64,000 nt of DNA from Archangium lipolyticum (GCF_024623785.1 NZ_JANKBZ010000001.1:434001-498000), one strand, 5' to 3'; positions 37,088 to 50,906 are shown, numbered from the stretch's first letter. Translations and numbers: made by a program. The notes: generated from the letters alone by a model not told the origin.

Positions 37088-40000
37088 TCACCCCGTTCGA
37101 CGCGCGCTTCCGCGCCGGTTGGGCTTCCAGAGCCACACCAGCGCCAGACCCCACCAGCCCCAGGCATTCGCACTCGTGCTCGTGCAGCCGTAGCCGGTGC
37201 CCGGGCTGGACGCATCAGGGGGGTTGGCATCAGGGGGGTTGCTGGAGCCGGCCGGCGGGTGGACGGTGAAGGAAACCTCGGACGAAGTGGCCAGGGTGTT
37301 GCCCTCTTCGTCCACCGCCACGGCCCGCATCGTGTGGGTACCCTCGCTCAGCGGTGTGGAGGGGGTGAAGCTCCAGGTCCCCGAGTCGCTCGCCCTCACC
37401 GTGGTGAGCACCTCTCCATCCACCAACACCCGCACCAGCGTGCCCGGTCCGGCCGTGCCCTCGAAGGTGGGGACGGTCGTCGCGCCCGTGGGGCTCGCCG
37501 CCGACGCGCTCACCGCCGGAGTCACCGGGCCCGTCGGGGCCTGGGTCTCCACGAAGAAGGAGATGACCGTGGACCAGGCGCTGGGATTGCCAGCGGCGTC
37601 CGTGGCTCTCGCCTTCACCTCGTGCGGACCCTCGGAGAGGGCTTCGGTCGTGAGACTCCACACGCCCGAGGCATTCGCGTGGGTGCTGAGTACCGTACCG
37701 GAGTCGAGCATCACCGACACCCGGCTGCCCGCCTCGGCCGTGCCCTCGAGGGTGGGTGTCCGGGTGCGCAGCCGCGCCCCGATCGTGGGCTCCATCACCA
37801 CGGGGACCGCCGGTGCCTGGGTGTCCACGGTGAAGAAGCGCGCGTCGGAGGCCGGGCTGGTATTGCCCGCTCCATCCCTGGCGGTGGCCGTCACGGTATG
37901 CGAACCATCGGAGAGCCGGGTGGTGAAGGTGAAGCTCCATGCTCCCGTGGTGCTCGCGGACACCTGGCCCACCGCCATCCCGTCGACAGAGAGCGCCACG
38001 ATGCTCGAGGGCTCGGCCGTGCCGGAGACCGAAGGGGTGCCCGTGTTGACGAGGGCGCCAACCCCGGGCGAGGTGATGACGGGAGCCTCCGGAGCCAGGG
38101 TGTCCACGGTGAAGGTGCGCGCGGCCGAGGGGCGGCTGGTATTGCCCGCCATGTCGGTGGCGGTGACCGTCAGCACTCGCGTGCCCTCCGCGAGCGCCTC
38201 GGTGGGGGTGTGGCTCCAGGTCCCCGAGGAACTGGCGGTGGTCGTGCCCACCGGCTGGCCGTCGATGAGGAGGGTGATGGAGCTGTTGGGCTCGGCCAGG
38301 CCGGAGAAGGTGGGCCAGGGGGTGTTGAACAGGGCCCCGCTGGTGGGTGCCGTCACCACCGGAGCGCTGGGCGGCACGGCGTCGACGACGAACGTGCGCG
38401 CGGCGGAGGCCTGGCTGACGTTGCCCGCCATGTCGGTGGCGGTGGCCGTCAGGGAGTGGGAACCCTCGGAAAGCGTCCCGCTGGAGATGAGACTCCACTT
38501 GCCCGTGGCGTCACAGGTGGCGGAGCCCGCCGCCGTGTCGTCGATGACGACCTCGATGAGGCTGAAGGGCTCGGCGGTGCCAGAGATGAGGGGCCGGGCG
38601 CCGACGCGGGCTCCGGAGAGTGGTGCGGTGATGAGGGGCGCCGCTGGCGGAGTTCCATCCACGGTGAAGGAGATGGGGGCCGAGTATGGACTGGCATTGC
38701 CGGCCTGGTCGGTGGCGATGACCTTCAAGGTGTGAGCTCCATCGGCCAGGCCCGTGGAGGGCACGAAGCTCCAGACGCCGGAGCTCGTCGCGATCACCAT
38801 GCCGAGCGGCTTCTCATCGACCACGAGCCACACCTGGCTGGAAGCCTCGGCGAAGCCGGTGAAGGTGTACCTGGCGGTGATGGTGGCCCCCGAGACGGGC
38901 TGGGACACTGTCGGAGTGGGCGGAGGGCCATCCACGGTGAAGGTGCGTGCGGGTGAGGCCTGGCTGGTGTTGCCGGCACTGTCCGTGGCCTGGACCGTGA
39001 GGGAATAGGTGCGGTCCGCGAGGGGGCTGGACGGCGTGAAGCTCCAGGAGCCCGAGGTGCTGGCGGTCACCGTGCCCGAGAGTCTTCCATCGAGGAACAC
39101 CGACACGGTGCTGGAATCCTCGGCGTAGCCGGTGAAGGTGGGCAGGGGGTCGTTCAGGAACGCGCCGTCGGCGGGGGCCGTCACCTCGGGCGATACCGGA
39201 GCCAGGGTGTCCACGGTGATGGCGCGAGTCGTCGAAGGCTGGCTGGAGTTCTCCGCCGGATCCACGGCGATCGCCGTCAGCCTGCGTCGCCCTTCGTACA
39301 GCGGCGCGGAGTTGGGGGTGAAGCTCCAGTTGCCCGAGCCGTCGACGAGGGTCTCTCCCAGCTGCCAGCCATCCGACAGGACGAGCACGCGGGTGGAGGG
39401 CTCGGCGGTGCCCGAAATCCTGGGAGTGGAGGTGTTGATCAAGGCCCCTTCAACGGGCGCGGTGATGACCGGAGGTTGCGGCGGAGTGGCATCCACGGTG
39501 AAGGACACGGTGGCCGGGCTCTGACTGACATTGCCAGCCTTGTCGGTGGCGGTGGCCGTCAACGTGCGAGTCCCCTCGGGCATACCGGTGCCAGGCGAGA
39601 AGCTCCACTCGCCGGAACTGGAGGCGGAGGCGGTTCCGAGCTTCACCCCATCCAGGAAGAGGGTCACGGTGCTGGAGGGCTCGGCCGTCCCGAGGATGGA
39701 GGCGGTGGGGCCCACCACCTTGCCCCCGGTGGGGGTCTGAATGACTGGCGTGGGCGGCGGCACGGTGTCCACGGTGAAGGTGCGCGCGGGTGAGGTCTGG
39801 CTGGTGTTGCCGGCGCCATCCGTGGCCTGGACCGTGAGGGAATAGGTGCGGTCCGCGAGGGGGCTGGACGGCGTGAAGCTCCAGGAGCCCGAGGTGCTGG
39901 CGGTCACCGTGCCCGAAAGTCTTCCATCGATGAACACCGACACGGTGCTGGAGGCCTCGGCGGAGCCGGTGAAGGTGGGAAGCGGGTCTTTCAGGAACGC

Positions 40001-43000
40001 GCCGCTGGCGGGTGCCGTCACCGTGGGAGCCGCGGGGGGCGTGGCATCCACGGTGAAGGAGATGGACTCGGAGGCCGGGCTGTCATTGCCAGCCGCATCC
40101 CTGGCGATCGCCACCAGGGTATGCGTGCCATTGCCCAGGCCCTGGGTACTCGTGAGGCTCCATGCGCCCAGGGCATCGGCCGTGGCCGAGCCAGCGGACG
40201 AGCCATCAATGAACACGGACACCAGACTCCTGGGCTCGGCGGTGCCGGAGAGGGTGGGCCTGCTGGTGTTGAGCAAAGCGCCGCTGGTGGGAGCCTTCAC
40301 CAGGGGAGCCGTGGGGGCGACGGTATCCACCGTGAACGCGCGGGCCACCGAGGCCTGGCTGGTGTTCCCGGCCGCGTCCGTGGCGGTGGTGGTGAGCGAG
40401 TGCTCGCCATCACCCAGGGTGAGGGAGATGGCGAGGCTCCAGGAGCCCGAGGCGCTGGCCTTCGTGCTCCCGGCGGGTTTCCCATCGATGAAGAGGGACA
40501 CGTTGCCGTGGGCCTCGGCGGACCCGGAGACCGTGGGCCTGCTGGTGTTGAGGGCGGCGCCGCTGGCGGGGCTCGTCACCACCGGCGCCGCGGGGGCCGC
40601 GGTATCCACCGAGAACGGGCACGAGGCCGAGGTGGGACTGGTGTTGCCCGCGGCATCCCTGGCACTGACCGTGAGGACGTAGGAGGCATCCGCCAGGGCC
40701 GTGGTGGGGGTGTAGCTCCAGGCCCCCGCCCCATGGGCGGTGACGATGGCCATCGGAGAGCCATTGAGGAATACCGTCACCGTGCTGTGGGGCTCGGCGG
40801 TGCCGGAGAAGGCAGGCGTGCCGTGGTTGAGGACCGTGCCGCAGACGGGGGTCTTCACCACCGGTGCGGCCGGGGCCAGCGAGTCCACGCTGAAGGAGAT
40901 GGAGTTGGAGGCCGGACCGGCATTGCCGGCCGCATCCGTGATGTTGGCCACCAGCGTGTGCGAGCCCTGGTTCAGGGCCGTGGTGAGGGGACGACTCCAG
41001 ATGCCCGAGCCGTTGGTGAGGGTCGAGCCCACGCTCGTGCCATCGATGAAGACGGTTACGGTGCTCGAGGGTTCGGCGATACCGGAGACGGTGGGCGTGG
41101 GGGTGTTGAGCAGGGCGCCGTTGACGGGAGCGGTCACCACGGCAGCGGCGGGCGCAGTGGTGTCCACGGTGAAGGTGCTCGAGGCCTGGGGACCGGTGTT
41201 GCTCGCCGCATCCGTGGCCTGGACGCCGAGGGTATGGGGACCCTCGCTCAGGTCAACCGGGAGGGAGAAGCTCCAGGTGCCCGAGCCATTGGCGGTGACG
41301 GTGCCCATCTGGACGCCGTCGAGGAATACGGTCACCGAGCTGAGCGCTTCAGCCGTGCCGGAGAGGGTCGGACGGGGGTAACGGGTGGAGGCGCCGTTGG
41401 CGGGAGCCGTGACCACCGGAGCGGCCGGTGCCACGGTGTCCAGGGTGAAGGAGACGGGGGCCGAGGCCGGACCGGTGTTTCCCGCGAGGTCGGTGGCCCT
41501 GGCCGTTGCCGTGTGGATGCCATCGGTCAGGCCGCTGGCGGGTACGAAGCTCCAGGCTCCGGAAGCATCGGCGGTGGCCGTGCCCAGGGGCGTGTTGTCG
41601 AGGTAGACGGCCACGGTGCTTCGGGCTTCGGCGGACCCCGAGAAGGTGGGCTTGTGGGTGTTGAGCAGGGCCCCGCTGGTGGGCGTGGCGAGCACCGGAG
41701 CGGCTGGCTCCAGGGTGTCCACGGTGAAGGAGCTCGTGGCCGAGACGGGACTGGTATTGCCAGACAGGTCGCTCGCCGTGGCTGTCGCCGTGTGGCTCCC
41801 TTCGCCCAGACTCGTGGTGGGCGTGAAGCTCCAGGTCCCCGAGCTGGTGGTGATGGCGGTGCCGGCGAGCTGCCCATCGATCGACACCGCCACGGTGCTG
41901 CTGGCCTCGGCGGTTCCGGAGAAGAGAGGGCGTGCGGTGTTGAGCCGGGCCCCCGTGGCGGGCACGGTCATCACCGGGGCGGCGGGCGGCGTCACGTCGG
42001 GCTGGACGTAGACCACCTTGCCGCCGGAGATGGCATGGGTGGTGACGGTGAGCAGGTAATAGCCCCCGGGCAGCGCCGGCAGGTCCACGGTGGCCGAGGT
42101 GCTCGAGAAGCTCAGCGCGGGCAGTGTGAGTGGCCCTGCCCCTTCCAGGGGGCGCAGCTCCACCATGGGGAAGTTGGTCGGGGAGCTCTGGTGGTTGCCA
42201 CTGCTGGCTTCGGACACGCCCGTGAGTCGCGTGCCGCCGAGGATGAAGGTTCCAGCGCTGAGAGGCGTCGTGGTGAGGGTGGGACGCGACGTGTCGGGGG
42301 CTCCCGAGCCATCGTAGAGCTCGGCGCTGGAGAGCGGGCCGCTGGCGCCCTGGCCACCGGCCACCAGCACCTTGCCGCCAGGCAGCAACACGGCCACGTG
42401 AGATGCGCGGGCTCCAGTCATGGAGGCGGCGGTGCGCCAGGCTCTCGAGGTCGGGTCGTACAGCTCGGCGCTGGAGAGCGGGCCCGTGGCGTTCCGGCCA
42501 CCCGTGACGAGCACCTGGCCTCCCACCAGCAGCGTGGAGGAGTGCTCGAAGCGGGCTCCCGCCAGGTTGCCCGTCGTGCTCCAGGTGCTCGTGTTCGGGT
42601 CGTAGAGCTCGGCGCTGGAGAGGGGGGCGCTGGCATTCTGGCCACCCGAGACGAGGACCTGGCCATTGGGGAGCAGGACAGCGGAGTGCGCGGCACGGGC
42701 GCCCAGCAGCGTGCCCACCGTGCTCCAGGATTTCGAAACCGGGTCGTACAGCTCGGCGTTGGCGAGCGGGGTACCGCCCGCGGTGTAGCCGCCGGCCACC
42801 AGCACCCTGCCGTTGAACAGCGGCGTGGCCGTGTGTGTATGGCGGGCGGCCGACAGGTTGGCGCCGGCGCTCCAGGAGCCCGAGACCGGGTCATACAGCT
42901 CGGTGCTGACCAGGGGGGTGGCGGAGCTGTCCCGGCCACCGGCCACCAGCACCTTGCCGTTGGAAAGCAACGTGGCCGTGTGGAGGGAGCGGGCCGTGGC

Positions 43001-45151
43001 CAGTGGTGCGGTGGCGCTCCAGGTGTTCGTGGCCGGGTCGTACAGTTCGGCGCTGGTCAGGGGGGCATTGTCGGCACCCGTTCCACCGGTGACGAGCACC
43101 TTGCCATTGGGCAGCAGTGTCGCGGTGTGATGGGAGCGGGCCATGGCCAGCGAGGCGGTGGTGCTCCAGCTGCCCGTGGCCGGATCATGCAACTGCGCGC
43201 CGCTGAGCGGGCCAGTGGCGTCCCGGCCCCCTGTGACGAGCGCCTTGCCATTGGGAAGCAGCGTGGCGGTGGCCCCGGAACGTGGCGAGGCCAGCGGGCT
43301 GGTAGAGGGCCACGTGCCCGTGGGCGGGTCGATCACCTCCGCGCTGGAGAGGCCACTGTAGCTGACGCCCCCCACCACCAGCACCCTGCCGTTGGGCAGC
43401 AGCGTGGCCGTGGAGGAGTTGCGGCCTGGGGACGACAGGGAGCCCGCGGAGCTCCAGGTCCCGCTGGTCGGGTTGTACAGCTCCATGCTCGTGCTGGAGA
43501 GGGTTCCAGCACCGCCCATCACCAGCACCCTGCCATTGGGCAGCAGCACCGCCGTGTGACCGGAGCGGCCCTGGGACAGGGAGCCCGTGGAGTTCCAGCT
43601 GTAGCTGGCCGGGTCGTACACCTCCACGCTGGAGAGCTCGACACCGTTCTGCCCTCCCGCCACCAGCACCTTGCCGTTGGGCAGCAGCGTCGCCGTGTGG
43701 AGCCGACGGGCCGCGGAGAGTGAGGCCCCCCGGCTCCAGGTCTCGGTGGCCGGGTCATACTCCTCCGCGGTGGCGGTCAGGGTGTTGTAGTTGGAGTTGT
43801 AGCCGCCCACCACCAGCACCTTGCCGCTCGGCAGCAGCGTCGCCGTGTGATTCGAGCGGCTCAGATACAGGGGGCCCACGCTCTTCCAGGTATTGGTGGC
43901 CGGGTCATACAGCTCCGCGCCAGCGAGCGTGTAGGTGTTTATTCCCCCCACCACCAGCACCTTGCCGCTCGGCAGCAGCGTCGCCGTGTGGCTGTGGCGA
44001 GACGTGGCCATCGAGCTGGTGGAGCTCCAGGTTCCGCTGGCCGGGTCGTACACCTTGCCGACGTCGCGGTAGGAGGATTGATACCCACCCACCACCAGGA
44101 CCTTGCCGTTGGGCAGCAGCGTCGCCGTATGGGCGTCGCGGCCCGTATCCAGCGAGCCGGAGGAGCTCCAGGTCCCGTTGGCCGGGTCATACACCTCCGT
44201 GCTGGAGAGGGCTTTGGTGCCATAGCCGCCGGCCACCAGCACCTTGCCGTTGGGCAGCAGCGTCGTCGTGTGCCGGTAGCGGCCCGTGGCCAGCGAGCCG
44301 GTGGAGCTCCAGCCCATCGTGAGCGCGGCCGGGCCGCTGAGGCCCTCGAGTCCCAGGGACACCTCCACCCGCAGGCGGGGGCCCGCCAGGGCATGGCACG
44401 GCAGACCACCGCACGCATACGAGGACCCTGGCTCCAACCCCCACACCCGTGCCTCTCCCTGGCGCACGTGCCCCGCCGCGTCCGCCACCAGCGGGTAATG
44501 CATCCGCAGCACCGGTGTCCCTCGGGCGTCGAGGAACTCCAGATGGCCGTCCGCGTCCCTGACCGTCGTGATTCCCGGGGGCACGGTCACCTCGTAGAGA
44601 GCCTTCCAGGCCCCCTGCCCTCCCTCCAGCACCTGGTACTCATCGGCCCGGACCACTCCCTGTGTTCCATCCCATCCCCGGGCCTGGCTTCCCACCATCG
44701 CCCAGCCATGCCGTGCGCCAGAGGAGGTGGAGCTCGCGCCGAAGCGGGACACCGGGGCCTCGCTTGCGTCCCGGGCCCGGAGGCGGAAGACATGGCCGCG
44801 GGTGGCCAGTTCCACCGTGCCGGCCTCGGTGGACGGCAGTTTCACCCGCAGGGCCCGCTCCCCCCATGGCACGGGTGAGGACGGAACGTCTGGCGCATCC
44901 GTCGGTTCCGGGAAGTAGGCCCTGAGCAGCTCCAGCGCGCTGTCTTCCGTGGGTGAGGCGCGCCACTCCGCCACGGCCGCCTCTCGCGAGTCGCTGGCCA
45001 CCACCCAGTCCTGGCGCCTTCCCAGATTGACGGCGGCGGTGTCCTCCGGACCCGGGCGCGAGTCGCAGCTCAGCACCATGCACAGCAGCGGCACCAGCCA
45101 CCGCGCCGAGAACGAAACAGGCCGTACGCTCCCCGAGACATTCCAGCTCAT
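37088..45151 (-). CDS. Giant surface protein: lipobox, 14 kelch repeats, 17 Ig-like repeats, MYXO-CTERM-like tail
   Basis: 2687 residues. The N-terminus has a lipobox (V-L-S-C, Cys29, Asp next), then a domain to about 285, 14 kelch repeats (about 287-947; recurring H-T-A-T-L-L-P-N-G-K-V-L-V-x-G-G), a spacer, and 17 Ig-like repeats of about 91 residues (about 1050-2620; recurring D-T-x-A-P-A-A-P-V-V and G-T-W-S-F). The end has a Pro/Asp/Asn-rich stretch, G-C-T, a hydrophobic W-G-L-A-L-V-W-L and an Arg-rich tail, the MYXO-CTERM sorting layout. Having both lipid and C-terminal anchors is odd. The likely role is a cell-surface or matrix adhesin. The ATG at 45151 gives the shortest signal peptide; 45190 is also possible. 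Confidence 0.9.
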   Translation of the reverse strand: MSWNVSGSVRPVSFSARWLVPLLCMVLSCDSRPGPEDTAAVNLGRRQDWVVASDSREAAVAEWRASPTEDSALELLRAYFPEPTDAPDVPSSPVPWGERALRVKLPSTEAGTVELATRGHVFRLRARDASEAPVSRFGASSTSSGARHGWAMVGSQARGWDGTQGVVRADEYQVLEGGQGAWKALYEVTVPPGITTVRDADGHLEFLDARGTPVLRMHYPLVADAAGHVRQGEARVWGLEPGSSYACGGLPCHALAGPRLRVEVSLGLEGLSGPAALTMGWSSTGSLATGRYRHTTTLLPNGKVLVAGGYGTKALSSTEVYDPANGTWSSSGSLDTGRDAHTATLLPNGKVLVVGGYQSSYRDVGKVYDPASGTWSSTSSMATSRHSHTATLLPSGKVLVVGGINTYTLAGAELYDPATNTWKSVGPLYLSRSNHTATLLPSGKVLVVGGYNSNYNTLTATAEEYDPATETWSRGASLSAARRLHTATLLPNGKVLVAGGQNGVELSSVEVYDPASYSWNSTGSLSQGRSGHTAVLLPNGRVLVMGGAGTLSSTSMELYNPTSGTWSSAGSLSSPGRNSSTATLLPNGRVLVVGGVSYSGLSSAEVIDPPTGTWPSTSPLASPRSGATATLLPNGKALVTGGRDATGPLSGAQLHDPATGSWSTTASLAMARSHHTATLLPNGKVLVTGGTGADNAPLTSAELYDPATNTWSATAPLATARSLHTATLLSNGKVLVAGGRDSSATPLVSTELYDPVSGSWSAGANLSAARHTHTATPLFNGRVLVAGGYTAGGTPLANAELYDPVSKSWSTVGTLLGARAAHSAVLLPNGQVLVSGGQNASAPLSSAELYDPNTSTWSTTGNLAGARFEHSSTLLVGGQVLVTGGRNATGPLSSAELYDPTSRAWRTAASMTGARASHVAVLLPGGKVLVAGGQGASGPLSSAELYDGSGAPDTSRPTLTTTPLSAGTFILGGTRLTGVSEASSGNHQSSPTNFPMVELRPLEGAGPLTLPALSFSSTSATVDLPALPGGYYLLTVTTHAISGGKVVYVQPDVTPPAAPVMTVPATGARLNTARPLFSGTAEASSTVAVSIDGQLAGTAITTSSGTWSFTPTTSLGEGSHTATATASDLSGNTSPVSATSSFTVDTLEPAAPVLATPTSGALLNTHKPTFSGSAEARSTVAVYLDNTPLGTATADASGAWSFVPASGLTDGIHTATARATDLAGNTGPASAPVSFTLDTVAPAAPVVTAPANGASTRYPRPTLSGTAEALSSVTVFLDGVQMGTVTANGSGTWSFSLPVDLSEGPHTLGVQATDAASNTGPQASSTFTVDTTAPAAAVVTAPVNGALLNTPTPTVSGIAEPSSTVTVFIDGTSVGSTLTNGSGIWSRPLTTALNQGSHTLVANITDAAGNAGPASNSISFSVDSLAPAAPVVKTPVCGTVLNHGTPAFSGTAEPHSTVTVFLNGSPMAIVTAHGAGAWSYTPTTALADASYVLTVSARDAAGNTSPTSASCPFSVDTAAPAAPVVTSPASGAALNTSRPTVSGSAEAHGNVSLFIDGKPAGSTKASASGSWSLAISLTLGDGEHSLTTTATDAAGNTSQASVARAFTVDTVAPTAPLVKAPTSGALLNTSRPTLSGTAEPRSLVSVFIDGSSAGSATADALGAWSLTSTQGLGNGTHTLVAIARDAAGNDSPASESISFTVDATPPAAPTVTAPASGAFLKDPLPTFTGSAEASSTVSVFIDGRLSGTVTASTSGSWSFTPSSPLADRTYSLTVQATDGAGNTSQTSPARTFTVDTVPPPTPVIQTPTGGKVVGPTASILGTAEPSSTVTLFLDGVKLGTASASSSGEWSFSPGTGMPEGTRTLTATATDKAGNVSQSPATVSFTVDATPPQPPVITAPVEGALINTSTPRISGTAEPSTRVLVLSDGWQLGETLVDGSGNWSFTPNSAPLYEGRRRLTAIAVDPAENSSQPSTTRAITVDTLAPVSPEVTAPADGAFLNDPLPTFTGYAEDSSTVSVFLDGRLSGTVTASTSGSWSFTPSSPLADRTYSLTVQATDSAGNTSQASPARTFTVDGPPPTPTVSQPVSGATITARYTFTGFAEASSQVWLVVDEKPLGMVIATSSGVWSFVPSTGLADGAHTLKVIATDQAGNASPYSAPISFTVDGTPPAAPLITAPLSGARVGARPLISGTAEPFSLIEVVIDDTAAGSATCDATGKWSLISSGTLSEGSHSLTATATDMAGNVSQASAARTFVVDAVPPSAPVVTAPTSGALFNTPWPTFSGLAEPNSSITLLIDGQPVGTTTASSSGTWSHTPTEALAEGTRVLTVTATDMAGNTSRPSAARTFTVDTLAPEAPVITSPGVGALVNTGTPSVSGTAEPSSIVALSVDGMAVGQVSASTTGAWSFTFTTRLSDGSHTVTATARDGAGNTSPASDARFFTVDTQAPAVPVVMEPTIGARLRTRTPTLEGTAEAGSRVSVMLDSGTVLSTHANASGVWSLTTEALSEGPHEVKARATDAAGNPSAWSTVISFFVETQAPTGPVTPAVSASAASPTGATTVPTFEGTAGPGTLVRVLVDGEVLTTVRASDSGTWSFTPSTPLSEGTHTMRAVAVDEEGNTLATSSEVSFTVHPPAGSSNPPDANPPDASSPGTGYGCTSTSANAWGWWGLALVWLWKPNRRGSARRTG
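37270..42010 (-). repeat. 17 tandem Ig-like repeat units
   Basis: Units of about 273 bp repeat through the 3' half of the giant gene. Neighbouring units share long runs of identical codons (for example around 38940-39140 and 39780-39980), a sign of gene conversion or recent duplication. Assembly of this stretch from short reads would be error-prone. Confidence 0.88.
42310..44290 (-). repeat. 14 tandem kelch repeat units
   Basis: Units of about 140 bp code for the H-T-A-T-L-L-P-N-G-K-V-L-V motif followed by Y-D-P-x-x-x-x-W. Fourteen copies would make two seven-bladed propellers. Confidence 0.86.
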
Positions 45152-45482
45152 CTTGCTTTCCGTCCCTCTTGCGGTGACACGACACCCCATCGCGCGAGCC
45201 GCTTCCTCGCGCGGATTGCCACACGCCGGAGTGCATTAACTTTGTCTGAAATGCGAAAGTCAATGAAGCTCGGGTTTCCTGCCCTACCGGTCCTGTCGGG
45301 CGCCCCAGGAGACAAAGAGCCAGGCAGCCACGAGGCTCGGGTGGCGTTTTTCTGGAAGCAATGAGCGGATAACCGGAAGCCAGCGCCTGCGTCCCATGAT
45401 ATTCACACGGGAGGGGCGCAAGAGTCGTCACTCAATGCTGCTCAACCGGCTGCCTCACCGAGCAGCCAGGAGAGGAACGAAC
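45152..45482. other. Divergent gap between giant protein and EF-hand gene
   Basis: 331 bp without a gene. A small GC hairpin (GCCACGA / TCGGGTGGC, 45327-45345) is followed by GTTTTT on the plus strand (to 45351). No upstream plus-strand gene needs it, so it may be a leader attenuator for the EF-hand gene. No other clear site. Confidence 0.4.
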
Positions 45483-46043
45483 ATGGCTACTGACAACCCT
45501 ATCTTGGAACGGAAGCTCAAGGCATTCTTCAGCCTCCTGGATTCGGACAAGAACGGCGTGCTCAAGTGGAACGACATCCTTCGCCCCGCCGAGAGAGCGC
45601 GCCAGGAGCTCGGATGGACGAAGGAAGACACGCGCTTTGTCAAGCTCGTGCAGGAGCTGCGGGCAGGCTGGGACCGGGTCCTCCAAGTCCAAGACCTCGA
45701 TCACAACGGAAGCATCTCGTATGATGAGTACGTCCGCTTCGTCTTCAGAATGGGCCTTGAGTGGACCGCCAACGGCGCACTCCCTGCGTGGGCAGTCGAG
45801 CTCTCCAACAACTTCCAGCGCGCCCTCGATCTGAACAGCGATGGTACGTATACAGCGAATGAGTATGCGATCTATCTCCGCGCGATCGGCTCGGATGCCG
45901 ACGCCAAGAGCGCCTTCGCGAAGCTCGACCTCAATAAGAACGGCAAGCTCACGTATGACGAAGTCCTGGTGCTGGCGAAGCAGTATGCGACCAGCACCGA
46001 TCCGTCAGCCCCTGGCAACTATCTGCTGACCGGGAAGTACTAG
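45483..46043 (+). CDS. Four-EF-hand calcium-binding protein (calerythrin-like)
   Basis: 186 residues with four canonical EF-hand loops: D-S-D-K-N-G-V-L, D-L-D-H-N-G-S-I, D-L-N-S-D-G-T-Y and D-L-N-K-N-G-K-L, each starting with Asp and with acidic residue at position 12. No signal peptide, so it is cytosolic, in the style of bacterial calerythrins that buffer or sense Ca2+. The start at 45483 follows AGGAGAGG; the frame is open upstream to 45396. It is 90 nt before the terpenoid gene on the same strand and could share its transcript. Confidence 0.9.
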   Translation: MATDNPILERKLKAFFSLLDSDKNGVLKWNDILRPAERARQELGWTKEDTRFVKLVQELRAGWDRVLQVQDLDHNGSISYDEYVRFVFRMGLEWTANGALPAWAVELSNNFQRALDLNSDGTYTANEYAIYLRAIGSDADAKSAFAKLDLNKNGKLTYDEVLVLAKQYATSTDPSAPGNYLLTGKY

Positions 46044-46133: not shown

Positions 46134-49127
46134 ATGCTGATGCCCAGGTGGCTCGATGCCGCGGGGTTCGTAGACCCAGAGCTCCGGCGCTGCTTCATCG
46201 CGGCTGGCCGCCGCCTGGGCGCGGAGTCCTCGCCGCAATTGGCTGATTTCGGACGCTGGGCCGGCCTCATTCCTGCCGCGCTGCGCCCGTATGAGGTCGC
46301 CATTGCATCGATGATACGGTCCGCCGATCTCCGCGCCGACTGCGGTGACCCCAAAGAGCGTCTGCGCCGCATCGATGAATACGAAGAGTCGGTGCTGACG
46401 GCGATCGCCGCGGGCCACAGCGACGAACCGGTGCTCCACGCGGTGGCGCACACGTTCAACGCCTTCGGCCTGCGCACCTGCTATCTCAAGGAGCTGTTCG
46501 GAGCAATGCGGCGCGACGCCGTGTTCACGCCCTTCACCACCCATGACGAGCTGCGGAGGTGGGCGGAGGCTTCGACGGGGGCGGGCTTCATGGTGTTCGG
46601 GCCGATGTTCGGCTCTTCCGGCACGCTCGCGGAGATCGAGCCCAAGGTGCGAGCGATGGGCGCGGCGATGCAGCTCGCCGACAACCTCCACGACCTCGCG
46701 GAGGACCTGCAGAACGGGCGGATGTACCTGCCGCTGGAGGATCTGGAGCGCTTCGGCGTGACGCAGGACGACTTGTTTCAGGGCCGCTGGTCCCCCGCGG
46801 TGGCCGAGCTTGTGGCATTCGAGGTCGCCCGTGTGCGGGGGGTGGGCCAGATGGTCGCCGAGCTGCAGCGCTGGACCCCTCCCTCGCTGCATCTGTTCCT
46901 GCGTACGGTGGCCCGGGGCATGGAGATGATCCTCGACGAGGTGATGGCGGCTGGCCCGCTGCTCCTGCGCCGCAGCCCGCCGATGCGCCGGTACCGCTGG
47001 TTCACCGCGACCTTCCCAGAGGGTGTCCCCGGCGACGTGGCGCGGGGCGAGGTGCAGTCACCCAGCGCGAGGGGATTGAACGGCAGCACCGGCCCCAAGC
47101 CGCCCGCGACGCAGCCCGCCCCGGCCGCCATCGCAGCAGAGCTCCAGCACTGGGTGAAGAGTGACGGCACCTGGTTGGGGCTGCTCTGCCGGGATGCCCT
47201 GTTCCCCCCAGGCAATCTGTTACGGCCGGTGCTGTGCCTGGAGTCGGCCCTTGCGACCGGCGGGAACCGCGCGGAGGTTCTGCCGTTCGCCGCGGGCCTC
47301 GAGTGCCTGCACGCCGCCAGCCTCGTCCACGACCAGCTCCTCGACAAGAGCCCGACGCGCCGCAGCCAGGCGGCGCTCCGGCATCGCTCCGGATTCGAGG
47401 ACCTGTTGCTGGTGGGCGGCGCGCTCTTTGGAAATGGGTTCCTGGCCATGCTCGGCGCCTGGGAGGACGGCGTCCCGCCGGAGCGGATGTTGCCGGCGCT
47501 GCGTACCGGGTGTCGCGCGGTCGAGGCGGCGTGCCGGGCCGCGCTGCTGGAGTCCACGCTGCGCGGCGACCTGTCTGCCGATCCGGAGCTGTGCCTGGAG
47601 GTGATCCGCGGCAAGACCGCGGCGTCCATGCAGGCGGCCTGCGCGGCCGGCGGGCTCCTCGCCGGGGCGCCGCCGGCGCAAGTGCAGGCGCTCGGCCGTT
47701 ACGGCGAGGCGCTGGGCATGGCGCTGCAGCTCCGCGACGAGGTGCTGGCACTGACCAGCGATCCGCACCCGATGGGAAACGGACTCACCAGCGACATCGA
47801 AAACCGGCAGCCGCCTTTGCCGGTGCTCCTGGCCCATGCCCTGGCGGGGGACACGGACCGGAGCCGGCTGGCGGAGACCTTTTCCAGCTCCGAGGCTTCG
47901 CTGACGGCTCACCGCGAGCTGGGCGCGCGATTGGCCCGGACCGGGGTGCTCGAGGAGGCGGCTCGCCGCGCGCGCGCGCACGCGATTCGCGCCCGCGAGG
48001 CCCTGGCCGAGCTGCCGCCGTCGGAGAGTCGGGATCGGCTCGCGGCTCTGGTCACCCGGGTCATGGAGGGCCAGGCCGCGCCGGACGGCATGCCCGCTCG
48101 GTTGCGAGATTCCGAAACAGGTTCCCCTGAACGCCTTGCCAAGGAGGGCCCTGCGGCGCCGAGCCTGCTGGCCGCGATCGAGGCGGAGCTGCACAGGTGG
48201 GTGAAGCGCGATGGCGACCGGCTTTCGGAGATGTGCTGCGACGCGCTGTTCCCCGCGGGCAAGCTGCTGCGGCCGGTGCTGTGCCTGGCGTCCGCGCTCG
48301 TGGTGGGCGGAGCGGTCCGGGAAGTGCTGCCATTCGCGGCTGGAATCGAGTGCATCCACGTCGCCAGCTTGATCCACGACGACCTCCTGGACCAAGACGA
48401 GATGCGCCGCGGCCGGGAGTCGCTCCCGCACCGCTACGGCATCGAGGACGCGATGCTGGCGGGCAACGGGCTGCTCGCCAAGGGCGCCCTGGCGATGATC
48501 GGCGCGTGGGAGGACGGAGCTGGGGCGGAGCGCCTGCTGGCGGCGCTGCGCGTGGTGGCGCATGCAATGAAGGAGGCGTGCCGGGCCGCGATGCTGGAGT
48601 TGATGCTGCGCAATGACCTGTCGATCGACCTGGCGCTGTCTTTGGAGGTGATCCGCGGCAAGACCGCGGTGCTGATGCGGGCGGCGTGCGAGAGCGGCGG
48701 CATCCTCGCCGGGGCCGCGTCCGCGCAGGTGCAAGCACTCGGTCGCTACGGGGAAGCTCTGGGCATGGCCTTCCAGATTCGCGATGACCTGCTGCCGTAC
48801 ACCAGCGACACCCGCACCATCGGGAAAGCCATCACCAGCGACGCCAACAACCGGTATCCCACGCTGCCGATTCTGCTGGCGCAGTCCCTCGCGGGTGACT
48901 CGGACCGGCGCCGGCTGCGGGAGCTGTTCTCCAGTACCGAGGATGTGCTGGCGATTCACCGCGAGATGAGCGAGCTGCTGTTCCGGACCGGAGCGATCGC
49001 GGAAGCGACGCGCCGGGCGCGCGAGTACGCGGCGTGCGCCCACGCGGCCTTGAGCGAGCTGCCGCCGTCCGAGAGCCGGGACCAGCTCGCGGAGCTGGTC
49101 ACCACGGTTGTTGACCGCAACCGCTGA
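46134..49127 (+). CDS. Three-domain terpenoid enzyme: squalene/phytoene-synthase-like plus degenerate and intact polyprenyl synthases
   Basis: 997 residues. Domain 1 (about 40-290) resembles squalene/phytoene synthases: D-L-R-A-D at 65-69 and D-N-L-H-D-L-A-E-D at 183-191 before G-R-M-Y-L-P. Domain 3 (about 675-997) is a trans-polyprenyl synthase with K710 (G-K-L-L-R-P), D749-D750-L-L-D753 and R-R-G, D884-D885 and K898. Domain 2 (about 330-650) is a duplicate of it, but K710 is Asn361, the second Asp of the first motif is Gln401, D885 is Glu536 and K898 is Asn549. So domain 2 is probably a non-catalytic or regulatory copy. Expected role: chain elongation of isoprenyl diphosphates by domain 3, then head-to-head condensation by domain 1. 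Small residues (Ala, Ser) before the first Asp motif suggest a product of C20 or longer. The final product is unknown. An EF-hand gene lies 90 nt upstream. Confidence 0.88.
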   Translation: MLMPRWLDAAGFVDPELRRCFIAAGRRLGAESSPQLADFGRWAGLIPAALRPYEVAIASMIRSADLRADCGDPKERLRRIDEYEESVLTAIAAGHSDEPVLHAVAHTFNAFGLRTCYLKELFGAMRRDAVFTPFTTHDELRRWAEASTGAGFMVFGPMFGSSGTLAEIEPKVRAMGAAMQLADNLHDLAEDLQNGRMYLPLEDLERFGVTQDDLFQGRWSPAVAELVAFEVARVRGVGQMVAELQRWTPPSLHLFLRTVARGMEMILDEVMAAGPLLLRRSPPMRRYRWFTATFPEGVPGDVARGEVQSPSARGLNGSTGPKPPATQPAPAAIAAELQHWVKSDGTWLGLLCRDALFPPGNLLRPVLCLESALATGGNRAEVLPFAAGLECLHAASLVHDQLLDKSPTRRSQAALRHRSGFEDLLLVGGALFGNGFLAMLGAWEDGVPPERMLPALRTGCRAVEAACRAALLESTLRGDLSADPELCLEVIRGKTAASMQAACAAGGLLAGAPPAQVQALGRYGEALGMALQLRDEVLALTSDPHPMGNGLTSDIENRQPPLPVLLAHALAGDTDRSRLAETFSSSEASLTAHRELGARLARTGVLEEAARRARAHAIRAREALAELPPSESRDRLAALVTRVMEGQAAPDGMPARLRDSETGSPERLAKEGPAAPSLLAAIEAELHRWVKRDGDRLSEMCCDALFPAGKLLRPVLCLASALVVGGAVREVLPFAAGIECIHVASLIHDDLLDQDEMRRGRESLPHRYGIEDAMLAGNGLLAKGALAMIGAWEDGAGAERLLAALRVVAHAMKEACRAAMLELMLRNDLSIDLALSLEVIRGKTAVLMRAACESGGILAGAASAQVQALGRYGEALGMAFQIRDDLLPYTSDTRTIGKAITSDANNRYPTLPILLAQSLAGDSDRRRLRELFSSTEDVLAIHREMSELLFRTGAIAEATRRAREYAACAHAALSELPPSESRDQLAELVTTVVDRNR

Positions 49128-49674
49128 CCCCGCCCGCCACCTGATCGACAAGCTGTGGCCGGAAGACCCAGCGGTTCTGCCCGATATTGAGCGGGCCTCG
49201 ATCCGGGTCGTACTCACCGACGGGAATGGTCACGTACAGGGTACCCGCGAGGGCCGTGGGGTGGTCCGACTGCTCGTTGAAGCCGTACCCGATGGTCGGC
49301 GCGTAGATCGGGTCGGAAATGCCCGTCATGCCGACCTGCTGGCCACCCGTCGCGGCGCTCGTGATGTTCACGTTCGCGGCGGCGAAGATGACATCGATGG
49401 GCGCCAGGCCGATGTTGCCGTACTTGAGCAGGTAGGTCCCGCGCATCACCATCGTGGTCTGCGAGGCGATCTGCTGGTCCGACGTGGCCGAGTAGCGCAA
49501 GTAGGCGTTGAGCATCAGGGTCTTCGAAGGCAGGTAGATACCAGCCTCGTAGTCCCGCGCATCCGTTTGTGCGAGCGCCCTCTGCGGCAGCAGGAAGAAG
49601 AGGGCCAGCACGCAAGAGATCATGAGTGGCATCACGTGACCGCCCTGCTCGAGCCTGGGGGAGTCGTTCATCAT
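49099..49674 (-). CDS. Truncated phenol-degradation MetA/SphA-like outer-membrane protein
   Basis: 191 residues. A signal peptide (M-P-L-M-I-S-C-V-L-A-L-F-F-L-L ending A-L-A-Q) is followed by D-Y-E-A-G-I-Y-L-P, strands typical of the MetA-pathway/SphA porin-like family and I-P-V-G-E-Y-D-P. After Q-L-V-D-Q family resemblance ends and a short G/Q-rich tail runs to the stop, about 100 residues before a usual end. The last 29 bp overlap the 3' end of the terpenoid gene, so the truncation may mark a rearrangement point. Two IclR-type palindromes lie upstream. Confidence 0.7.
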   Translation of the reverse strand: MMNDSPRLEQGGHVMPLMISCVLALFFLLPQRALAQTDARDYEAGIYLPSKTLMLNAYLRYSATSDQQIASQTTMVMRGTYLLKYGNIGLAPIDVIFAAANVNITSAATGGQQVGMTGISDPIYAPTIGYGFNEQSDHPTALAGTLYVTIPVGEYDPDRGPLNIGQNRWVFRPQLVDQVAGGVSGCGQQPW

Positions 49675-49850
49675 GGTTCGGGTATTTCCTTCCTGTGTCC
49701 GCGGGTAGCGGGAACTCCAGATGCGCATGAATCATTATCCGAGCTCATGGCGCATTGGAACGACGCAGCCCGACAACCAATGACATGCGAATATTGCCAG
49801 GACGCTGGTGTCGCGGCTCCTTCCGTGAGCCGCGCCTTCGGCCGCCGTGG

Positions 49851-49875: not shown

Positions 49876-49891
49876 TGTGAATCATGGTCTT

Positions 49892-49908
49892 GTTTCGCAT
49901 GGCGAAAC
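49892..49908. promoter_or_regulatory. IclR-type palindrome, site 2
   Basis: GTTTCGC-ATG-GCGAAAC, the same core and 3-nt spacer as site 1, 37 bp centre-to-centre from it. Confidence 0.8.
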
Positions 49909-50021
49909 GGGTCGTGTTTCAACACCGCTCTGGCTGCCATGACTTGATTTTCCGTCTTTCATCGGTAGTGTATCTGATTGCCTGGGAATGCGGTCTGCCC
50001 CCCCAGGCAAAGGGAGAAGGC

Positions 50022-50906
50022 ATGAAAGCGACGGCAGGTTCCAGGATCCTCGTTGCGCTGCTCTTGTCCATGGCGTGGAGTTCCTCCGCACTGGCCCAGA
50101 GTCTGACCAGCTTCACGGCGACGTACAGGGGCGGGAGTGGCTCCATCTGTGGCACGACGTACAGCATCATCGGCAGGGAGCCTTTGTCCTCACAGAGCAG
50201 ATACCCGGTGTTCATCTACACGGTGGGCACCACGGAGGGGTACGATCACGCCTCGGCGATGGCCGCCGTCGAGGAGATGGCGAGCCGTGGCTATGTCGCG
50301 GCCACCGTCGAGTATGACAACGCCACCTTTGGCACCTGCTCCACGCTCGAGAGCCGCGCCAGGTGCATCTTCGATTCGACCCGTTCGACCAGCGCCATCA
50401 ACACGGTCTGTTCGCGCGCCAAGGCGGATTGCTCCAAGGGCGTCGTGGTGGCCGGCTTCAGCCAGGGGTCCATCATGGCCATCCTGGCCAAGAACCATGA
50501 CAGCCGGGTGCAGGCCGCCTATGGGCTGGGAGCGGGCGTCGCGTACTCCATCTACGATCTTCGCTCCTGCGTCGCCAACGGCAACCGCGCGCTGCCGAGC
50601 GACCGTCTCCGGGTCGTGAATGGGGAGAACGACGCGTTCATGGGCTCGACCGAGCTCACCGTGCGCAGCCAGATCCAGGAGATGACGGGGCTGTCGTGCC
50701 CGTTGGCGACCTCCTGCTTCCGTAGCAACAACAGTGGCTGGTACATCGTGGAGAATTCCGAGGCCTCGGATGGTATTGCCGACCACTGCTACATGCGGCA
50801 GGGAAGCTGCGTCGGCCTCACCCTGGACCAGAAGTGGCGCGCCGGCACCTACGGCTGGTCATTGAGGACCAACCTGAACTGGCTGACGCAGTTCACCCAA
50901 CCGTAG
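50022..50906 (+). CDS. Secreted alpha/beta-hydrolase-fold protein
   Basis: 294 residues with a signal peptide (ending A-L-A-Q). The fold shows Y-P-V-F-I-Y-T-V-G-T-T, the nucleophile G-F-S-Q-G-S (Ser148), Asp204 (N-G-E-N-D-A-F-M) and His255 (A-D-H-C-Y-M), a likely triad. Paired cysteines (C106/C115, C130/C137, C183, C226/C232, C256/C263) suit a secreted protein. Family is near dienelactone hydrolase/cutinase-like proteins but no substrate is readable. AGGGAGAAGG precedes the ATG. IclR-type sites 1 and 2 lie upstream, and the IclR gene follows. Confidence 0.86.
   Translation: MKATAGSRILVALLLSMAWSSSALAQSLTSFTATYRGGSGSICGTTYSIIGREPLSSQSRYPVFIYTVGTTEGYDHASAMAAVEEMASRGYVAATVEYDNATFGTCSTLESRARCIFDSTRSTSAINTVCSRAKADCSKGVVVAGFSQGSIMAILAKNHDSRVQAAYGLGAGVAYSIYDLRSCVANGNRALPSDRLRVVNGENDAFMGSTELTVRSQIQEMTGLSCPLATSCFRSNNSGWYIVENSEASDGIADHCYMRQGSCVGLTLDQKWRAGTYGWSLRTNLNWLTQFTQP

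Follow-up and report, generated by a model that had tools for sequence, protein, structure and literature searches.

Organization of the locus

The window, that is, the whole stretch of 64,000 nucleotides of Archangium lipolyticum DNA that was analysed (GCF_024623785.1 NZ_JANKBZ010000001.1:434001-498000), lies within contig C1 (at least 498 kb) of a 12.6 Mb genome in 75 contigs. A single open reading frame on the plus strand (bp 46134 to bp 49127) begins with an ATG, stays open up to its stop codon with no frameshift, and encodes a protein of 997 amino acids, in which a phytoene-synthase-like or squalene-synthase-like (PSL/SQS-like) domain is followed by a decayed and then by an intact polyprenyl synthase. 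Third-position GC is high throughout (0.87 in the SQS-like part, 0.89 in domain 2 and 0.90 in domain 3). Pfam matches were obtained once to PF00494 (SQS_PSY; residues 45-288, 8e-35, 121 bits against a cut-off of 26) and in two stretches to PF00348 (8e-84 overall, the top stretch at residues 698-936). Together with the uninterrupted frame, these bear out the original prediction that one protein joins an SQS/PSY-like domain to two polyprenyl synthase domains. Duplication of the synthase copies during assembly was ruled out, since the copies are 39% different and the frame lies inside a long contig.

Domain 1 (residues 1-282; bp 46134 to 46979) has the PF00494 fold and is assigned below, on balance, to the phytoene-synthase-like prenyltransferase clade. 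Its first Asp motif, D65-L-R-A-D69 (bp 46326 to 46340), keeps the DxxxD pattern, and its second, D183-NLH-D187-LAE-D191 (bp 46680 to 46706), carries D183 where head-to-head synthases have Asn. Linker 1 (residues 283-328; bp 46980 to 47117) is predicted to be disordered (pLDDT < 50 at residues 283-322). It leads into domain 2 (residues 329-645; bp 47118 to 48068), a polyprenyl synthase fold with a decayed active site (N361, Q401, S406, E536 and N549), with degenerate first and second Asp motifs, DQLLD and DEVLA, at bp 47331 to 47345 and bp 47736 to 47750. Linker 2 (residues 646-677; bp 48069 to 48164) is also predicted to be disordered (pLDDT < 50 at residues 647-675). Domain 3 (residues 678-997; bp 48165 to 49124) is intact, with K710, R713, H742, DDLLD, QIRDD and GK, and its first and second Asp motifs, DDLLD and DDLLP, are at bp 48378 to 48392 and bp 48783 to 48797. 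All of these features are on the plus strand.

The three-domain gene is strain-specific, and the nearest relatives are without it. The same-genus genomes G065 (97%) and G064 (93%) align to the window exactly from bp 49143 to bp 51965, with no match upstream at that site. The alignment starts 16 bases past the stop codon of the three-domain gene, within a convergent PF13557 gene (bp 49099 to 49728, minus strand) that is truncated at bp 49143 and ends in approximately 15 foreign residues. This gene is intact in G065 (approximately 300 amino acids), and its missing part was not found elsewhere in the host genome. Just upstream of the three-domain gene (bp 45396 to 46043, plus strand) is a gene for a protein with at least two EF-hands, whose NCBIfam matches to XopAW and lanmodulin are weak and below cut-off; no match to it was found in 38 relatives at 1e-20, and it may belong to the strain-specific segment as well. 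No sigma-70 promoter or terminator was found at the locus. Three further features were observed in the surroundings. The minus strand from bp 37088 to 45190 encodes a 2700-amino-acid protein built of long internal repeats that look Kelch-like and Ig-like on visual inspection, and these repeats match many sites in related genomes and on other host contigs. A dispersed repeat of approximately 57 bases is present at L135:17571-17631 in G065 and on many contigs of the host genome (G000), with at least 8 places in the genome. A 340-amino-acid secreted, hydrolase-like protein with no Pfam match is encoded at bp 49884 to 50906 (plus strand), and is approximately 97% conserved at the DNA level in G065.

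Active-site loss in domain 2

Domains 2 and 3 share 61% identity across approximately 319 columns, and the four active-site residues that domain 2 had been said to have lost, a lysine, two motif Asp residues and the GK lysine, are indeed replaced there and kept in domain 3 (N361/K710, Q401/D750, E536/D885 and N549/K898, domain 2 first). Further losses in domain 2 are D406S, G411S, R412Q, Y540L and T561P. When 66 columns that are fixed in 15 actinobacterial synthases were inspected, 15 were changed in domain 2 alone, one in domain 3 alone and four in both, and the two Asp-rich motifs and the GK site account for 10 of the 15 changes restricted to domain 2. The losses in domain 2 exceed a uniform rate of change, and their clustering in the active site agrees with the proposal that the loss was selective. 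Domain 2 retains R364, H393, R409, R410, K494 and Q532, as well as structural positions, and it matches the PF00348 profile, but its Asp motifs are degenerate. Domain 3 has the profile match, the Asp motifs and the K, R and H of the IPP site, save that the second motif lacks its final Asp and reads DDLLP rather than DDxxD, a form shared by most members of the clade. Two methods put dN below dS in the comparison of the copies (0.30/0.55 by NG86 and 0.27/1.53 by maximum likelihood). Domain 2 is probably dead as an enzyme yet constrained as a fold.

It could instead be a relic that is decaying without selection and is tolerated as domain 3 can dimerise between chains. The gene is known from one genome only, in a locus that arose through a recent insertion or rearrangement peculiar to this strain, with a neighbouring gene disrupted, and the tree branch of domain 2 is the longer (0.49 vs 0.20 for domain 3); the single occurrence may mean that the gene is little used or heading for decay. 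However, the frame of domain 2 is intact across 330 codons, dN is below dS, and the losses lie in the active site and are not spread across the fold. The relative-rate excess is also modest, the acceleration of domain 2 not being significant in a count with operon outgroups (37 vs 26). We therefore regard decay without selection as unlikely, although it deserves some weight.

Origin of the tandem synthases

Domains 2 and 3 group as sisters in the synthase tree (100/97), and this pair is then joined to the synthases of a Streptomyces operon described below (100/98). Because the two domains are sisters, the tree indicates that the synthase was duplicated within this lineage and that copy 2 decayed afterwards, and domain 2 is, as originally predicted, a tandem copy of domain 3. 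The nearest synthases are approximately 50% identical, and the gene was likely acquired from actinobacteria by transfer.

The nearest solved sequence relative of domains 2 and 3 is Ord1 (PDB 9v4g; 30-32% identity in structural alignment), which falls in the same synthase clade (100/99). Ord1 farnesylates tryptophan (PMC13290415), and from this it could be proposed that domain 2 has been adapted to another reaction, for instance an Ord1-like acceptor prenylation, with domain 3 as the donor maker. We consider this very improbable, since Ord1 keeps the DDIID, DD and GK residues but has Gly and Gln in place of the IPP-site Arg and His, and the pattern in domain 2 is the reverse. Domain 3 keeps K710, R713 and H742, and so does not share the Ord1-type loss; with the Arg and His in place, elongation with IPP is the more likely activity of domain 3. 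Small residues (Ala744 and Ser745) stand ahead of its first Asp motif, and by product-length rules such residues speak for products of C20 or longer, so that the chain made by domain 3 would probably be C20 or longer.

The synthase region also gave a match to NF041169, the polyprenyl-transferase cargo of family 2 encapsulins (332.9 bits summed over two stretches), and the host carries adjacent family 2 shell genes (L182 and L183, at C3:626044 and C3:627497 within G000:C3:626044-628249; PF19307, 441-454 bits). We give almost no credence to a cargo role, as the match is below the 450-bit cut-off and is outscored by the IdsA model, the shell genes are on another contig (C3), and NF041169 models a single-synthase protein of 334 positions.

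Predicted structure of the synthase pair

AlphaFold2 modelling of residues 321-997 (domains 2 and 3) gave a pTM of 0.85 across the disordered linker, a value that is not proof of a canonical dimer interface. For two independently placed domains a much lower pTM would be expected. In the model the two domains are thus placed confidently against each other, which fits a catalytic and non-catalytic pair within one chain, and from this we infer that they may form the canonical synthase dimer interface. The first-motif loop of domain 2 (residues 405-417) is modelled with low confidence, which would be in line with the loss of a metal site. The full chain gave a pTM of 0.70, so the placement of domain 1 is less certain. 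A Foldseek search with the full model returned single synthase chains and no tandem among the 50 matches listed. At the sequence level, domains 2 and 3 have the combination of a catalytic and a non-catalytic synthase-fold partner that is seen in heteromeric trans-prenyl synthases; trans-prenyl synthases act as dimers, and several have a non-catalytic partner (PMC7839719). The in-lineage duplication, the clustered losses and the pTM of 0.85 for the tandem all support the earlier suggestion of a structural role for domain 2, a decayed in-lineage duplicate that most probably persists as the non-catalytic partner of domain 3.

Relationships of domain 1

Domain 1 had been predicted to be a head-to-head synthase domain, by which the protein could reach a C30 or C40 product with channelling; domain 3 would make FPP or GGPP, domain 1 would join two of these head to head, and domain 2 would be a structural partner. 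Domain 1 does match PF00494, and it has both of the DxxxD motifs (D65/D69 and D187/D191) that are needed for holding a diphosphate. HpnC is its first match among solved relatives (E 1.4e-19), followed by LvqB4 (E 1.2e-17) and CqsB4, with YisP at 1e-6, and HpnC is also the best NCBIfam SQS model. Nevertheless, all of the NCBIfam scores are far below cut-off (106 bits against 250 for HpnC, 91 against 279 for HpnD, and 52 against 550 for CrtB). In the tree, a split with support of 98/99 places domain 1, the operon genes, the fused Streptomyces gene L059, many Streptomyces homologues, CqsB4 and LvqB4 on one side, and HpnC, HpnD, CrtB, PSY and CrtM on the other; the sequences of NzsG, DmtC1 and NozPT are outside this tree. 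A tree constrained to place domain 1 among the head-to-head enzymes was rejected (AU p = 0.0047). Four positions that are Tyr58, Asp66, Gly152 and Asn183 in 88-100% of the head-to-head rows are occupied in domain 1 by Ala, Leu, Phe and Asp, respectively. Position 183 is Asp in all 31 PSL rows, including CqsB4 and LvqB4, and Asn in 88% of the head-to-head rows. Further polyprenyl synthase and SQS/PSY genes are present at other places in the host genome, some of them close together on contig C9, which likewise speaks against head-to-head synthesis by this protein. The C30/C40 prediction is probably wrong, and we rate head-to-head condensation by domain 1 as unlikely, its profile matches notwithstanding.

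The reading that we favour from these comparisons is that domain 1 is a member of the phytoene-synthase-like prenyltransferase clade and not a head-to-head synthase. The PSL enzymes that have been characterised act on indoles or carbazoles, and the groups that they transfer to carbazoles or tryptophan dipeptides are C5 or C15 (PMC7466098, PMC6173783, PMC10156859). The clade of domain 1 and the Streptomyces operon genes is possibly basal to the PSL group (a 42-row split with support of 56/64), so that it need not be nested among characterised acceptor prenyltransferases, and transfer activity of domain 1 is something we infer. Two negative results count against prenyl transfer: no acceptor-making gene was found near the open reading frame, and a search of the host genome, run without a positive control, found no CDPS gene. 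No CDPS was found among ten proteins scanned beside other Streptomyces PSL genes.

A third view is that domain 1 acts as a phosphatase or cyclase on the product of domain 3, giving a free prenyl alcohol or a cyclic terpene. YisP, an SQS-fold protein, is reportedly an example of such an activity, and it is among the solved matches (1e-6); the motifs of domain 1 have drifted from those of head-to-head synthases, and the lack of nearby acceptor genes would also be in keeping with this view. However, YisP is a far weaker match than LvqB4 (E 1.2e-17), and domain 1 groups with the PSL enzymes in the tree, which makes a phosphatase or cyclase quite improbable.

Relatives in Streptomyces and occurrence of the architecture

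Approximately 85,000 species genomes were scanned with a few peptide patterns. In at least 12 Streptomyces loci, and in at least 2 more from a single additional Streptomyces genome, almost the entire protein is matched within approximately 1.9 kb. In these loci, except L059, an SQS-like gene and a polyprenyl synthase gene are adjacent and separate, and upstream of the pair there is an ABC ATPase gene (PF00005), with an ABC-2-like permease gene in most of the called loci. A single TGA lies between the SQS-like and synthase frames, which are in the same frame in 10 of 13 loci, so that loss of one stop codon would fuse the two genes. Approximately 10 of 393 Streptomyces genomes have a close SQS-like gene, none of them fused. 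The exception among the matching loci, L059:9965-11929 of Streptomyces sp. WM6378, encodes a naturally fused two-domain protein of 654 amino acids, with the same order and with intact motifs in both domains. It is 28% identical to domain 1 and 42% identical to domain 3, the same strain also has the unfused operon (L060), and L059 is probably a separately evolved fusion.

When 195 genomes of the phylum were searched with the full-length protein (E 1e-80), only its own genome was returned, and a search with domain 3 at 1e-40 in the phylum returned only G061, at 33%. No second case of the three-domain order was found in the phylum genomes or among the matches listed from the approximately 85,000 genomes. 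The claim that the order is without bacterial precedent has to be qualified, given the Streptomyces operon, with its two genes adjacent and usually in frame, and the L059 fusion. The parts are known from Streptomyces, but the three-part arrangement itself was seen in no second genome among those searched. A literature search for an SQS-like/polyprenyl synthase/ABC operon found no published description.

The ABC transporter genes of the operon are absent from the window, and no precursor peptide or other small open reading frame is common to most of the Streptomyces operon loci. A promoter-like block, about TTCACTCGTGCGGGCTAAT, is conserved ahead of the ABC ATPase gene in most of L044-L060 and is absent from the window. 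In three Streptomyces (L048, L049 and L051) a 77-amino-acid open reading frame (MTGELDNRYRNAALP...) is conserved 3' of the polyprenyl synthase gene. Two archaeal MAG contigs (L056:7400-9286 and L057:1213-3102) each carry a tandem of two diverged polyprenyl synthase genes, which may represent heteromeric pairs.

Comparison with known systems and proposed function

The nearest relatives of the three-domain protein are encoded by the Streptomyces operon (L044-L055 and L060), in which the SQS-like protein is 38-47% and the synthase approximately 50% identical, with the same gene order. That operon consists of four unfused genes (ABC ATPase, ABC-2 permease, SQS-like and polyprenyl synthase) and has one synthase copy, whereas the frame described here is fused and has two. 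L059 is likewise fused in the same order but has a single synthase copy. CqsB4 and LvqB4 share with domain 1 both the clade (98/99) and Asp183; these PSL enzymes and NzsG, DmtC1 and NozPT are free-standing, unlike domain 1, which is fused and possibly basal. A catalytic and a non-catalytic partner, as proposed here, are found in HexA/HexB, GPPS LSU/SSU and HepS/HepT (PMC7839719). The partners of such heteromeric synthases are two polypeptides, whereas here both are in one open reading frame and are 61% identical; in mint GPPS the non-catalytic subunit has diverged much further (approximately 15% identity). Fungal chimeras such as PaFS (PMC8190136) likewise fuse a donor synthase to a donor-using enzyme, but in these the partner is a cyclase and there is one prenyltransferase domain per chain.

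The best explanation, for and against which we find the balance about even, is a single-chain enzyme in which a prenyl-donor synthase pair is fused to a prenyltransferase. Domain 3 would make an allylic prenyl diphosphate from IPP, and the non-catalytic domain 2 would pack on it as the second protomer of an obligate synthase dimer, so that the chain would carry its own pseudo-heterodimer. By analogy with PSL prenyltransferases, domain 1 may then move the prenyl diphosphate of domain 3 onto a small, probably aromatic acceptor, and tethering would couple donor supply to donor use. The full proposal of a self-contained chain, with an obligate active/inactive pseudo-heterodimer that arose when a synthase domain was duplicated within the chain and one copy selectively lost its active site, and that feeds a fused PSL acceptor prenyltransferase, is put forward tentatively, with our doubts somewhat outweighing our confidence.

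If this proposal is right, the protein would represent a naturally occurring intermediate on the way to heteromeric prenyl synthases, its protomers being still 61% identical and locked in one chain. Restoring or exchanging a few residues would then be a direct way of asking why an inactive half is retained in a dimer. Synthesis of the prenyl donor and PSL-type transfer would, moreover, be linked in one protein. The locus further points to an apparently undescribed, conserved operon of Streptomyces in which the same two activities are accompanied by an ABC transporter.
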